This document shows positions 13,459-16,349 of a stretch of DNA of 23,271 bases, piece after piece. The stretch is taken from positions 1 to 23,271 of the IMG/VR virus record IMGVR_UViG_3300037502_001423. One strand, given 5' to 3'. Position 1 is the first letter of the stretch. Every line of letters starts with the position of its first letter. Below the pieces are notes generated by a model. It was given only the letters and a program-made list of their open reading frames with translations. It did no database searches and had not been told where the DNA came from. The translations under genes were made by a program, and so were the position numbers. The DNA is from a virus.

Positions 13459-14275
13459 GTTGGCTCAAAATTTTCCATGCGGTTGCTGCACAAAGTGGGA
13501 CTTGTCCGTTTCCAATGGCTTTAAGTCTGTCCACTCTAGCGGCCACCCCATCAGCCACTCTGTCCAAGTTGGGTTCAGTTTTCCACCATTGTGCAGACCC
13601 GATACTTGTTCTCCAAGATTCCCCTTGCCTCTGTCCCTCAACGCGTGTCTTGAATCTTGCGCTTTTGGCGTTCCCCAAGTTTTTCTGCCGACTATTGTTT
13701 CCAAGTTTGGATTGCGTTTTTCGTTCCACGCTGATTCTGGAGTTATCGTTGCTGCCATTGCCGAACAACTCCTTGGCGTTGGCCATTTTTCCGACAATCC
13801 ATATTCTGTCTCGTCTATGGTTTGCACCAATGTTGGCAGCTGATATAACTCCCCACCTACTGTCATACCCCATTGCGGTAAGGTCTGCAAGGACTCGTTC
13901 AAGTCCTCTAGTAACGAGCATTGGACTGTTCTCCACAAATGCGTATTTTGGTCGAACCTCGCTAATAATCCGTGCCATTTCTCGCCACATTCCTGATCGT
14001 TCTCCGTCAAGGCCATCTCCTTTTCCTGCAACTGAAATGTCTTGGCATGGAAATCCGCCCGAAACAACATCAACAATTCCTCTCCACGGCTTTCCGTCAA
14101 AGGTTTGAACATCATCCCAAATCGGGAAAGACGGGAGAAGTCCGTCATTTTGTCGGGCGAGCAATACGCTTGCTGGGTATGGTTCCCACTCAACTGCGCA
14201 GACGGTTCTCCATCCGAGCAAATGTCCCCCAAGTATTCCTCCACCAGCGCCTGCGAAAAGAGCCAACTCATTCAT
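13451..14275 (-). CDS. dcm: DNA (cytosine-5) methyltransferase
   Basis: This 274-residue protein has the C5-methyltransferase motif order. Motif I is LFAGAGGGILGG (6-17). Motif IV is GGFPCQDIS (73-81), with nucleophile Cys77. Motif VI is VENSPML (114-120), motif VIII is RRDRIWIVG (154-162) and motif X is VDRLKAIGNGQVP (248-260). The target-recognition part (about 165-235) is short, so the recognised sequence is probably short and cannot be predicted. It would protect phage DNA from host restriction; no partner nuclease is encoded here. Its ATG overlaps the preceding TGA (ATGA), with AAAGG upstream. A second 268-codon frame is nested in it (next entry). Confidence 0.93.
   Translation of the reverse strand: MNELALFAGAGGGILGGHLLGWRTVCAVEWEPYPASVLLARQNDGLLPSFPIWDDVQTFDGKPWRGIVDVVSGGFPCQDISVAGKGDGLDGERSGMWREMARIISEVRPKYAFVENSPMLVTRGLERVLADLTAMGYDSRWGVISAANIGANHRRDRIWIVGKMANAKELFGNGSNDNSRISVERKTQSKLGNNSRQKNLGNAKSARFKTRVEGQRQGESWRTSIGSAQWWKTEPNLDRVADGVAARVDRLKAIGNGQVPLCAATAWKILSQHE
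13465..14271 (-). CDS. Overprinted ORF in the +1 frame of the methyltransferase
   Basis: A second ATG only 4 bases after the methyltransferase ATG opens the +1 frame for 268 codons, ending 14 bp before the methyltransferase stop. The product begins MSWLFSQALVEEYLGDICSD and ends near LNPTWTEWLMGWPLEWTDLK. I recall phage hypothetical proteins with this SWLFSQALVEEY start and WVEWLMGWPxGWTDLKP end; this is from memory and unchecked. A frame of this length in DNA of about 45% G+C is unlikely by chance. One ribosome site (AAAGG) could serve both ATGs. It is either a true overlapping gene or a by-product of constrained methyltransferase codons; several other frames here are also unusually open. Confidence 0.5.
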   Translation of the reverse strand: MSWLFSQALVEEYLGDICSDGEPSAQLSGNHTQQAYCSPDKMTDFSRLSRFGMMFKPLTESRGEELLMLFRADFHAKTFQLQEKEMALTENDQECGEKWHGLLARFDQNTHLWRTVQCSLLEDLNESLQTLPQWGMTVGGELYQLPTLVQTIDETEYGLSEKWPTPRSCSAMAATITPESAWNEKRNPNLETIVGRKTWGTPKAQDSRHALRDRGKGNLGEQVSGLHNGGKLNPTWTEWLMGWPLEWTDLKPLETDKSHFVQQPHGKF

Positions 14276-14652
14276 GCTGCCTTTACCGATGCGCGTAATA
14301 CCGCAGCTTTGAATAAATACGGTTGATCAAACTGGCTTTCCAGAATGCCCAACTCTTTGCCCTTGGCCACAATGCCAGGCCATGTTTCGTGCCATTCCTT
14401 CCCGTCAACCACGCCGGGCAGGCTGACTTTTAACTCATCGGACCAGCGCTCACCACGCAACCAGGTTCCTGGGTAGCATATGAACTGGCCATCATTCTTA
14501 CGCCATTGGTCCGAGCGCATCTGCTGCCGGATGGCATCCAATAGTTCTGGCAGCGGTGGCCGGATTCCCTCAGTCTGTTTCCAGGCCTTACGGGCATCTC
14601 CCTTAGCAACACGGCGCGGGTAAACCTTCCAAAATTCTTCAAAGTCTGTCAT
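14272..14652 (-). CDS. Replication-region protein, FWxxYP type
   Basis: This 126-residue protein begins MTDFEEFWKVYPRRVAKGDARKAW and contains DGQFICYPGTWLRGERWSDE. The FWxxYPxxxxKxxAxxAW plus FixxPxTWLxxxRW signature is common in phage replication-initiation and helicase-loader-region proteins, often as a C-terminal domain of lambda O-like proteins. It is free-standing here, without an obvious winged-helix DNA-binding part. ATG at 14652 is preceded by GGTGGA; the longer TTG start at 14679 is rejected. It overlaps the methyltransferase start (ATGA). A link to the palindrome array at 15516-15593 is inference. Confidence 0.65.
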   Translation of the reverse strand: MTDFEEFWKVYPRRVAKGDARKAWKQTEGIRPPLPELLDAIRQQMRSDQWRKNDGQFICYPGTWLRGERWSDELKVSLPGVVDGKEWHETWPGIVAKGKELGILESQFDQPYLFKAAVLRASVKAA

Positions 14653-14752
14653 TTTTAGTCCACCAAAGAATAACGCCAACCAATATGGCCACGATCAAAA
14701 TAAACCAAGTAAATTCAAAAAATATTTGAGATTGAATAGAATAAGGAATCAT
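14639..14752 (-). CDS. Micro membrane protein, 37 residues
   Basis: This 37-residue ORF starts at ATG 14752, overlapping the preceding TGA as ATGA, and runs 14 bp into the next gene. It encodes a polar start (MIPYSIQSQ), a single strong membrane segment (FTWFILIVAILVGVILWW) and a charged tail (TKNDRL). The coupling and hydrophobic pattern support a real gene that fills a gap otherwise left between 14749 and 14652. Function unknown. Confidence 0.55.
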   Translation of the reverse strand: MIPYSIQSQIFFEFTWFILIVAILVGVILWWTKNDRL

Positions 14753-15021
14753 GCGTCTTTTCTTTCTCGGATGGCGCTGGCAACTTGTTCCAATTCAATT
14801 CCGTTAAACCATGCCATTTCGGCCACTTTGGCGCATTGTTCGCGCTCGTAATCGGCGGCTTTTTTTATTGAAGTAATTAAACGATCAGTAGCAATCTGCC
14901 TAAACTCGGCAAGCATACTGTTTGCAAACTGTTCTAGCTGCGCCTGAGACGCATACCAATTTTTTTTACTTTTTCTTAATCCAGATTTGATTGCAATTTC
15001 TTCGAGGTCATCGAGGGTCAT
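14749..15021 (-). CDS. Hypothetical helical protein, first gene of leftward early operon
   Basis: This 90-residue charged, helical protein begins MTLDDLEEIAIKSGL and ends with a REQCAKVAEMAWFNGIELEQ helix and AIRERKDA. The closing YEREQCAKVAE...IAxAIRxR pattern recurs in small phage hypothetical proteins. ATG at 15021 has a strong AAAGGAG ribosome site, so the 30 extra upstream codons (to 15111) are taken as leader and promoter. It is the promoter-proximal gene of a run of about 5 kb of leftward genes. Function unknown. Confidence 0.7.
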   Translation of the reverse strand: MTLDDLEEIAIKSGLRKSKKNWYASQAQLEQFANSMLAEFRQIATDRLITSIKKAADYEREQCAKVAEMAWFNGIELEQVASAIRERKDA

Positions 15022-15041
15022 TTGCGTTCTCCTTTTTGCAG

Positions 15042-15070
15042 AGAATAAATGATTAATAAATAGTTTGCAA
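15042..15070 (-). promoter_or_regulatory. Leftward early promoter candidate
   Basis: On the minus strand TTGCAA (15070-15065) is followed after 17 bp by TATTCT (15047-15042), and then AAAGGAG and the ATG at 15021. TTGCAA is self-complementary. In the plus direction it also has TATTTT 17 bp away (15088-15093), so the site could fire both ways. The -35 hexamer and spacer length are identical to those of the rightward promoter at 15621. Confidence 0.5.
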
Positions 15071-15111
15071 CCTAGGATTTGTTTGTTTATTTTTTTAAAT
15101 AGATTACCCAA

Positions 15112-15131
15112 GGGGTGGAAACATCCACCTC
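15112..15131. other. Inverted repeat GGTGGA-AACA-TCCACC
   Basis: A perfect 6-bp stem with AACA loop. The outer bases can extend it on the plus strand through a G-T wobble. There is no U-run on either side, so it is not a terminator. Confidence 0.45.
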
Positions 15132-15180
15132 AATCCCAGAGTTTCCTCCCAGATAACGCATGACGCAGCGATTCATTCAT

Positions 15181-15241
15181 TAAGAGTCTTGTCCCACCAC
15201 TTTCCTCTTAACTATTCTGGTCCCTCGCTGACAGGCCAGAA
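15181..15241. other. Two adjacent inverted repeats in the control region
   Basis: TAAGAG (15181-15186) pairs with CTCTTA (15205-15210). TTCTGG (15215-15220) pairs with CCAGAA (15236-15241) and extends by a wobble. The two hairpins stand side by side in non-coding DNA. No protein reading of this block has a plausible start. Confidence 0.4.
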
Positions 15242-15333
15242 CCCAAACACGGGGTGCAATGCTGGGTGTCTTTTATTCCGCGCAGCCGATTCAGGCCCAT
15301 TACTATCGTGCGGAGTACGGTCAGCTGGCCAAT

Positions 15334-15355
15334 AAAAAAACCCCAAATCCTTGGG
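15334..15355 (-). terminator. Leftward intrinsic terminator of the predicted RNA
   Basis: On the minus strand a CCCAA / TTGGG stem with a GGAT loop is followed by G and seven U residues. No leftward protein gene lies just upstream of it, so it most likely ends a non-coding transcript. Confidence 0.65.
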
Positions 15356-15488
15356 TGGTGCGGCCTTGGCGGGCATCCTTGGAATTAGTCCTCGTAGTGG
15401 GGAATGACCGATTCCAAGCATTTGTCGCACCACCGAAAAATTCGGGGTTAGCCACATACGAGATTCCAACAAGTGCCACCTTGCTGAC
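15334..15488 (-). ncRNA. Predicted structured small RNA
   Basis: A GC-rich block inside A/T-rich non-coding DNA. On the minus strand a 9-bp perfect helix (15426-15434 with 15354-15362, GGTGGTGCG) encloses an 8-bp perfect helix (15411-15418 with 15378-15385, CTTGGAAT). A short CCGAA-TTT-TTCGG hairpin precedes the outer helix and overlaps its 5' strand by two bases, and an intrinsic terminator follows. A promoter candidate lies upstream at 15495-15522. The expected transcript is about 155 nt. It matches no RNA family that I recognise; 6S, tmRNA and RNase P signatures are absent. The ends are approximate. Confidence 0.5.
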
Positions 15489-15494
15489 ACCCAT

Positions 15495-15522
15495 ATATTA
15501 CCACGGATAGGCAAGTAGGCAA
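15495..15522 (-). promoter_or_regulatory. Promoter candidate for the small RNA
   Basis: On the minus strand TTGCCT (15522-15517), 16 bp, then TAATAT (15500-15495). The -35 hexamer lies inside palindrome unit 1 (15516-15529), so a protein bound to the array would compete with RNA polymerase. Confidence 0.35.
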
Positions 15523-15593
15523 ACGCCTATTTTTGGTAGGCAAATGCCTATTTTTACTAGGTGTTTACCCTAGTTTTATAGGGGATTTCCCTA
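15516..15593. repeat. Four palindromes at exact 21-bp period (candidate iterons)
   Basis: Units are TAGGCAAACGCCTA (15516-15529), TAGGCAAATGCCTA (15537-15550), TAGGTGTTTACCCTA (15558-15572) and TAGGGGATTTCCCTA (15579-15593). Start-to-start distance is 21 bp each time, two helical turns. Each unit has TAGG...CCTA arms and is followed by a T-rich spacer. A half unit, TAGGCAAG, lies at 15508. An A/T-rich stretch follows. The layout resembles the four dyad-symmetric iterons plus A/T-rich region of the lambda origin; an operator array is the alternative. Confidence 0.75.
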
Positions 15594-15620
15594 ATTTTTG
15601 AAAAAAAAGCAACAAATCCG

Positions 15621-15649
15621 TTGCAAACCTCAAATAAACAGTTTACTAT
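15621..15649 (+). promoter_or_regulatory. Rightward early promoter
   Basis: TTGCAA (15621-15626), 17-bp spacer, TACTAT (15644-15649). An A8 tract upstream (15601-15608) could act as an UP element. It would drive the genes from 15695, and no other good promoter is seen before them. Confidence 0.6.
15635..15645. promoter_or_regulatory. Palindrome TAAACAGTTTA, candidate operator
   Basis: An 11-bp perfect inverted repeat covers the spacer and the first two bases of the -10 element of the rightward promoter, where a repressor would block polymerase. Its counterpart is at 9520-9530. Confidence 0.5.
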
Positions 15650-15694
15650 TCATTTACGGTCAACTTTCCAGACCGGACAAAAAGGAGAAACAAA

Positions 15695-16018
15695 ATGAAA
15701 TACACCGTATACCAAATTAATCTGTCAGATGACCAATATGCTGCTCATCGTGAGACATACCTAAACACAACATACCGCCCAAATGACGAGGCCATTCTTG
15801 CAGCGCGCAGCCTATATGCGCCAGTTGCAGAAATCAATACAACCTCATTAAACCAAGTTTTTCATATCGGTAACATCGGCCCAAATTCAAAAATCAAACG
15901 CCTAGCACCTATGCATTCTGTATCAGTTGGCGATGTGATCATTGACGCAAATGGTGAGGCCGCATATGTATCAACATTTGGTTTCAAAAAAATGGGTTTT
16001 AACTTATTTGGTAATTAA
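15695..16018 (+). CDS. Early hypothetical protein, KYTVYQI...SVGDV type
   Basis: This 107-residue protein begins MKYTVYQINLSDDQYAAH. Its second half contains MHSVSVGDVIIDANGEAAYV, then FGFKKMGF. The YxVYxI start with a SMSVGDVVV...FGFKK end recurs in small early phage and plasmid proteins of unknown function. It is the first gene after the rightward promoter, with AAAGGAGAAA before ATG, so it should be expressed early and strongly. No catalytic motif is visible. A UUCG-loop hairpin follows its stop. Confidence 0.75.
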   Translation: MKYTVYQINLSDDQYAAHRETYLNTTYRPNDEAILAARSLYAPVAEINTTSLNQVFHIGNIGPNSKIKRLAPMHSVSVGDVIIDANGEAAYVSTFGFKKMGFNLFGN

Positions 16019-16023
16019 TCAAC

Positions 16024-16037
16024 GGGGCTTCGGCCCC
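16024..16037 (+). other. UUCG-capped hairpin after the first early gene
   Basis: GGGGC-TTCG-GCCCC is a very stable tetraloop hairpin followed by ATTTAT, a weak U tract. It sits in the 37-bp gap before the next gene. Partial termination or protection of the upstream mRNA end is likely. Confidence 0.6.
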
Positions 16038-16055
16038 ATTTATCGGAGAGAAAAT

Positions 16056-16349
16056 ATGCAAGCAATCGACATTCAAATTACCCAAGTTGACCGCCTAGGT
16101 TTACTGTTAGCACAAATCGCTGACCTGACCAAAGAGGCAGACGCAATCAAGGACCAACTCAAAGAGGCAGCAACTGCCGGCGGTCCATCCTCATACGAGG
16201 GCAATCTATATCGTGCCACCGTTGTGGCCAGCAACCGCCAGGTTGTTGATTACAAGGCCTTGATAGCTGACATCGGCGTTACCGATGAGCAGCTGCAGAT
16301 GTTTACCAAAACCACCGCAGTATTTGCAGTAAAAACCGTTAGTCGTTAG
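16056..16349 (+). CDS. Early hypothetical protein with N-terminal coiled coil
   Basis: This 97-residue protein begins MQAIDIQITQVDRLGLLLAQ and continues through a charged helix (KEADAIKDQLKEA). A beta-rich half follows (SYEGNLYRATVVASNRQVVDYKALI) and the protein ends FAVKTVSR. The pattern, helix then LYRATV...R..VDxKAI, is seen in small proteins of phage recombination regions. ATG at 16056 has CGGAGAG upstream. The upstream in-frame extension to 15942 overlaps the previous gene and is rejected. Function unknown; position suggests a helper of the recombination genes. Confidence 0.75.
   Translation: MQAIDIQITQVDRLGLLLAQIADLTKEADAIKDQLKEAATAGGPSSYEGNLYRATVVASNRQVVDYKALIADIGVTDEQLQMFTKTTAVFAVKTVSR

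Follow-up and report, generated by a model that had tools for sequence, protein, structure and literature searches.

A folded RNA of about 155 nt is predicted to be encoded on the minus strand at positions 15488-15334 of the window, by which we mean the whole 23,271-base virus record IMGVR_UViG_3300037502_001423. On balance we favour the view that it belongs to a promoter-leader-terminator cassette, an attenuator of a phage replication operon in which a choice between folds would set the read-through. With the same, slightly better than even, confidence the phages concerned are taken to be P22-like freshwater phages and the RNA a pseudoknotted leader at the head of the replication operon. More tentatively, and somewhat short of even confidence, such RNAs may represent undescribed and widespread phage RNA switches, double pseudoknots in which the fold that forms first cages a terminator arm and the order of folding sets the amount of replication protein. 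The window carries P22-like head genes (portal, phrog_156; major head, phrog_283; large terminase). Its left operon, which includes a replication-initiation-like gene (14272-14679), lies on the minus strand and is separated by a non-coding gap from the right operon, which starts at 15695. The first right gene (15695-16018, plus strand) encodes a protein of 107 aa that is weakly YodL-like (PF14191, under the cut-off) and has 230 relatives in viral contigs.

The minimum free energy (MFE) of the minus strand was -77.3 kcal/mol versus -51.7 ± 4.9 kcal/mol for 200 shuffled controls, none of which was as good (z -5.25), and the plus strand reached a fold z of just -2.36. Likewise, the covariance model R1 described below scored 173 bits on the minus strand versus 34.6 bits on the plus strand. 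From its 5' end the predicted RNA consists of P1, a linker, P2 enclosing P3 and P4, and a U tract. P1 (15487-15466) is a hairpin of 8 bp with an invariant GUGGCA loop (15479-15474), in which 99.2% of the alignment cells were paired and four of the eight pairs showed two-sided changes. P2 joins 15448-15426 to 15362-15340 by 22 pairs with one C.C mismatch, both strands being supported by covariation (two-sided changes in 19/22 pairs), and it abuts the U7 tract (15340-15334), which was recognized by the terminator scan and as conserved T columns. The 3' end of the RNA is thus formed by GGGG-U7. Both perfect inverted repeats of the preliminary description are present: the one of 9 bp (GGTGGTGCG, 15354-15362, with CGCACCACC, 15426-15434, on the plus strand) is the top of the 22-pair P2, and the nested one of 8 bp (CTTGGAAT, 15378-15385, with ATTCCAAG, 15411-15418) corresponds to P3. 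The minus-strand terminator with its U7 was also recovered. It had been regarded as a separate hairpin with two bases in common with the outer helix, but that helix, P2, is itself the predicted terminator stem. A separate 5-bp terminator hairpin (CCCAAGGATTTGGG) is visible in P2 class A only, not in classes B and C, and was discarded. The small P4 hairpin (15374-15363) was paired in 100% of the cells, with two-sided changes in one of three pairs. The GCCA of its loop and the UGGC of the P1 loop are complementary, and a kissing contact between these loops is possible; in this, the long form of the RNA, the two loops are nearly unvarying.

Relatives were gathered through searches with the neighbouring proteins and with DNA patterns, and R1 was built from 29 distinct RNAs. 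It matched 79 virus loci at E ≤ 8e-10, giving 63 distinct rows. In loci that had been fetched via the neighbouring protein alone, R1 found divergent members at the same place (L014 at 1e-11; L015, L016 and L018 at 0.002); a further match, in L017 (3e-23), was to a member of the training set. Compensatory changes were looked for in these homologues and were found. Of the cells in the 63 rows 96.1% were paired and 30 of the 41 pairs had changed on both sides, counts that lean towards the model because the alignment was fitted to it. The covariation score of the same rows was 0.523 versus 0.188 after shuffling (0/500), slid pairings reaching 0.144 at best; like the other covariation tests on these sequences, it ignores kinship. 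A MAFFT alignment of the first 29 RNAs agreed, with 98.1% paired, 11 pairs with two-sided changes and 0/500. Of the further alignments, A2 was reduced from 101 to 60 rows by removing 41 antisense, duplicate or non-matching ones, and A1 excluded L002, L003, L095 and L181, which are cut by the contig end; L212, with a mis-segmented stem, was left out of the sets used for P3 covariation and folding order. The sequence of P2 itself falls into at least four classes. That the region holds nothing but chance inverted repeats or a decayed gene is very improbable: open reading frames of 83-100 aa do overlap it, but such an origin is at odds with covariation in 63 distinct sequences, with the z of -5.25 and with the indels of the homologues, which are not in multiples of three (25 aligned rows). 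Because of these indels and the compensatory changes the region was read as non-coding, and a coding gene at 15334-15488 was rejected, in line with the earlier view that this GC-rich island contains no plausible gene. R1 had no match in 399 Burkholderiales genomes. The 20-mer CCCCGAATTTTTCGGTGGTG recurs in Lachnoclostridium, where it has neither stem partner nor U tract and R1 found nothing at E ≤ 1, and in a Pandoraea locus, where R1 gave merely 12.9 bits and elsewhere in the locus; both occurrences were read as chance.

Upstream of the RNA an extended -10 element (TGGTAATAT, 15503-15495, minus strand) predicts a start at about 15488. Among 50 distinct upstream sequences, 46 carried the pattern TANNNT 5-8 nt ahead of GTCA (mean of the shuffled controls, 5.5), and the -10 was TG-extended in 31. 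Together with P2 and the U tract this conserved -10 bears out the proposal of a minus-strand non-coding RNA with a promoter-like site and a terminator of its own. The -35 placed by the preliminary description inside the first palindrome of an array (15516-15529) does lie there (TTGCCT, 15522-15517), 16 nt from TAATAT; as a -35 it is weak, however, matching at four of six positions, and the TTGCCT/TAATAT promoter was absent from the output of a sigma-70 promoter scan of 14700-16100. The conserved part of the promoter region is the -10. Sequence of the array is retained upstream in only 12 of 25 aligned homologues, and a general dependence of RNA expression on occupancy of the array is not supported. 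The array itself comprises four palindromes with a spacing of about 21 bp (15516-15595, between the divergent units; TAGGCAAACGCCTA, TAGGCAAATGCCTA and two looser ones), which are likely the operators of a regulator. Upstream of the RNA's promoter there is another terminator-like hairpin, which faces left and has a U8 run (15624-15609, minus strand).

Both the linker that joins P1 to P2 and the apical loop are hypervariable, and linkers match their own loops. In a first set of 20 distinct linker-loop pairs the cognate energy was -12.5 kcal/mol versus -4.6 kcal/mol for permuted pairs (0/10000). In the full set of 44 distinct linkers, taken with the adjoining copy 1 (UUGGAAU, 15469-15463), it was -23.9 versus -13.5 ± 0.5 kcal/mol (0/5000), and the own partner was best or tied for 36 of the 44. 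This putative helix, S1, would pair its 5' strand (15469-15452, copy 1 plus linker) with 15401-15391, the apical partner of the linker, and with 15385-15378, which is copy 3 (AUUCCAAG); both contacts are indicated by covariation. Copy 3 has a second partner in copy 2 (CUUGGAAU, 15418-15411), with which it forms P3, the inner repeat noted earlier. The pairing of copy 2 with copy 3 covaried as well (45 distinct, 0/5000 permutations), also inside the P2 classes. Since copy 3 cannot pair with copy 1 and copy 2 simultaneously, these two covarying partners imply that two alternative folds, S1 or P3, have been conserved. The comparisons show in this way the predicted helices P1, S1, P2, P3 and P4, the U tract, the upstream -10 and the competition for copy 3.

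The order in which these helices might form was followed by folding with pseudoknots disallowed. When transcripts were cut before the 3' arm of P2, S1 was part of the MFE structure in 49 of 59 distinct sequences; the transcript of the window itself folded to P3 and was among the 10 without S1. At full length P2 was present in 54/59 and S1 in five. S1 and P2 have no nucleotides in common, and because no strand is shared their mutual exclusion is argued from geometry. In the mechanism that would account for this, RNA polymerase starts at P1 and, before the 3' arm of P2 is made, the leader would pair with the apical region as S1 and the P1 loop with the P4 strand. This early fold would hold the 5' arm of P2 inside a closed loop. 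For as long as S1 lasted, the base of P2 could not form, there being zero or few free nucleotides where the linker meets the 5' arm, and the polymerase would read on. A change of partner by copy 3 from copy 1 to copy 2, giving P3, would let P2 zip up against the U tract, and transcription would stop, yielding the RNA of about 155 nt. Switching would then be achieved by the topology of the folding order, not by strand sharing.

Five deposited spring-water phage genomes, which were reached through the terminase, were scanned for U tracts preceded by a long stem. Structures of the same plan and of unrelated sequence were found in L187, L188 and L190. These compact members were missed by R1, and R1 and the model of the compact type, R2, find none of each other's members. 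The long and compact forms have a common plan with no detectable sequence similarity, their likeness being one of plan alone. In the first 191 loci scanned there were 16 distinct stems, 15 of the same plan and one other. Among 17 records or regions of named phages the structure was present in three (L187, L188 and L190), and the stem scan revealed none in L189, L191, L410-L416 and L419-L423. Of these, L410 (PQ492659.1), Limnohabitans phage DC33, has 39 kb and a tailed-phage-like replication gene, and the record says Inoviridae, a label that looks doubtful. In L188 a primosomal/replication gene starts about 9 nt past the U tract, and relatives of the L188 and L190 genes gave 62 structure hits, 20 of them distinct. 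Upstream sequence of 140 nt or more was available before the gene match in 156 loci, and in 52 of these the predicted compact stem was shown to end 16-19 nt before the match to the replication gene; ten loci had a hit elsewhere, some of them 230-650 nt upstream, and the remainder had none at the scan threshold. The genes behind the compact RNAs match primosomal/replication PHROGs. A -10 was found just upstream in 42 of 47 compact loci (shuffled mean, 15). The small hypothetical proteins annotated across the structures (L187:4881-5099, L188:6498-6716 and L190:33654-33896) are probably spurious. An int-alpA RNA (RF02996) lies in the deposited L188 genome (2423-2489, minus strand).

The contacts of the compact type paralleled those of the long form. 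The P1 loop occurred in six sequences among 22 aligned compact RNAs, each matched by a complementary interior strand in the same RNA (0/10000); covariation was also seen in the linker contact (0/10000). S1-type pairs were seen in 21/22 cut transcripts and P2 in 22/22 at full length. R2 had a match in one of the 399 Burkholderiales genomes, on a phage contig of the assembly that also has genes for a helicase, a terminase and a portal protein. The distance from the end of the stem to a primosomal gene downstream is 16 nt there, and this member, which is outside the training set of R2, has retained all contacts. This single genome and RF02932 (see below) suggest a betaproteobacterial host. In compact RNAs the linker directly adjoins P2, the partner of the linker lying at the far end of a stem of 19-23 bp, so that by geometry the two pairings could not both be complete in one molecule. 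The length of P2 is nearly fixed, at 19 bp in 43 of the 52 and 22-23 bp in nine, and this attenuation alone does not explain. An improbable alternative is that the RNA forms homo-oligomers, in which neighbouring molecules are joined by pairing of linker and P1 loop on one with the P3 loop and P4 strand on the next, the P2 rods lying side by side. The near-constant length of P2 would fit such an arrangement, as would the freely varying complementarity of cognate strands and the compact linker, which is joined directly to P2 and, with P2 closed, would be too far in a single molecule from its partner at the other end of the 19-23 bp stem. In the long form, however, P3 and the conserved spacer could bridge the distance, and the folding switch accounts for the same pairs. 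In L331 (1478-1500) and in other compact RNAs a word after the U tract, beside the start codon, is complementary to the 3' end of P2 (AGCCC...GGGCU); when P2 is open this pairing could mask the ribosome site.

The arrangement characteristic of an attenuator, promoter, leader and terminator before a gene, was found in the compact type; in the group of the window the gene is not adjacent. There the RNA heads the operon region without touching a gene, and a second element and a candidate promoter intervene. The first gene followed at a median of 273 nt in 68 loci with an open reading frame, a few compact ones included. The second element (type 1) occupies approximately 15325-15200 (minus strand, the left boundary being approximate), 3' of the terminator. 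It begins with GCUGACYG or a near variant and belongs to exchangeable types among the relatives, of which RF02932 (Betaproteobacteria-1) is one. RF02932 was found directly 3' of the RNA's terminator in four of six phage loci scanned (L227:673-791, plus strand; L196:3951-4072, L194:711-834 and L186:162-285, minus strand). At the same joint other loci have elements of different types, as if swapped. Eight bacterial RF02932 loci, five of which exceed the family cut-off, lacked a stem and U tract of this kind in the 600 nt upstream. The first conserved word of the second element, GCUGAC (15325-15320), complements the 5' strand of P1, GUCAGC (15488-15483). A perfect GCTGAC was seen in 56 of 79 members and the other 23 pair at five or six of the six positions, G-U allowed; the complement is mostly invariant, with a matching change in two loci (GTCAAT/TTTGAC), and the putative pairing is regarded as a lead. 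Over about 200 nt past the terminator in eight loci the fold z was mostly weak on both strands (strongest in L208, -3.6, and L194, -2.3), and one long structured leader comprising both elements is not claimed.

Before the first left gene a candidate promoter, TTGCAA-17-TATTCT, is located at 15070 (minus strand), so that read-through is perhaps not needed in the window's group. Sites of the TTGCAAAC type precede both operons, at 15070 (minus strand) and 15621 (plus strand), with a -10 17 nt on (TATTCT and TACTAT, respectively), and the TTGCAA-type motif recurs 35-105 nt before the first open reading frame in many relatives. The lack of a directly following gene in this group, together with the operon's own candidate promoter, is what one would expect if the released RNA of about 155 nt were itself the product, a stable trans-acting molecule with a protein or RNA polymerase as its binding partner and a position that reflects an early promoter. 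Its own promoter-like site, strong terminator and conserved GUGGCA loop would agree with this. We nevertheless consider it rather unlikely in view of the constant spacing of 16-19 nt from the replication gene in those 52/156 compact loci, the P2 sequence that is replaceable between classes and the missing free seed. The only unpaired columns with an identity of at least 95% are one G before P1, the P1 loop, two A and the U tract, and no conserved free seed of a base-pairing trans-acting sRNA was found among them. Base-pairing targets are disfavoured since a conserved seed is lacking and the P1 loop complements the RNA's own P4. The suggestions that the RNA acts as an antisense RNA, a host-targeting sRNA or a sponge thus found no support, and of the replication-control role proposed earlier the link to replication genes stood, the RNA heading them in the same 52 compact loci, but as a leader rather than an antisense RNA. 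Replication genes downstream and the GGGG-U7 3' end might also suit a primer or an origin-activating RNA; this we regard as more improbable still than the homo-oligomer, as no origin was located and the first gene of mosaics may be of another kind, e.g. the HNH endonuclease that follows the RNA in L208.

Returning to the attenuator that we favour, many small freshwater phages would, if it is true, time or dose their replication genes by a leader RNA that replaces or supplements a repressor, and an early pseudoknot that cages a terminator arm without base sharing would be an unusual attenuator design. The covariance family can already be used to annotate replication operons of viral metagenomes, and the Betaproteobacteria-1 RNA is placed in a phage setting, as a neighbour of the present RNA and not identical to it. 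Rfam 15 gave no hit in the whole window at the gathering score and nothing near threshold in 15040-15700 at E ≤ 10, and among the divergent and compact members no family fell on the RNA. No description of the RNA was found in the literature; an earlier notice is possible, e.g. in the 2017 survey of 224 candidate RNAs.

Several known systems share single traits with this RNA. In type III toxin-antitoxin systems the gene of a nuclease toxin is preceded by ToxI, a series of pseudoknot repeats in tandem, whereas the present RNA is without tandem repeats and is followed by genes that are for replication or of no assigned kind. The cognate loop pairs of the phi29 packaging RNA vary yet stay complementary. 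The likeness is in these variable cognate loops; phage type, place and helices differ. GOLLD and ROOL are structured RNAs, some from lakes, that are homo-oligomeric and, in the part of the account considered here, described as large (PMC12286853); no Rfam link to the present RNA appeared in our scans. The put RNA of HK022 is described as about 70 nt with two stem-loops at the head of the early transcript, acting on distant terminators with no dedicated protein (PMC9378689). Compared by that partial description, the two are alike in being folded RNAs that head an early phage transcript, and differ in that the present one has 155 nt, is pseudoknotted and carries its own terminator stem. The rep leader of pT181 is subject to antisense-controlled transcription attenuation. 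In pIP501 the leader before repR stops or passes RNA polymerase, with a repressor at the promoter (PMC4981023). An antisense promoter in the present leader was not listed on the plus strand by the sigma-70 consensus scan of 14700-16100, a scan that cannot exclude one. As far as the excerpts describe them, the defining features of pIP501 attenuation and of HK022 put are each only partly shared. With both plasmids, on the same partial description, the RNA has in common a leader that heads a replication gene and would be able to stop or pass the polymerase; it differs from them in that its competing folds would form a pseudoknot instead of having strands of one pair of stems in common, and in belonging to phages and not to plasmids.
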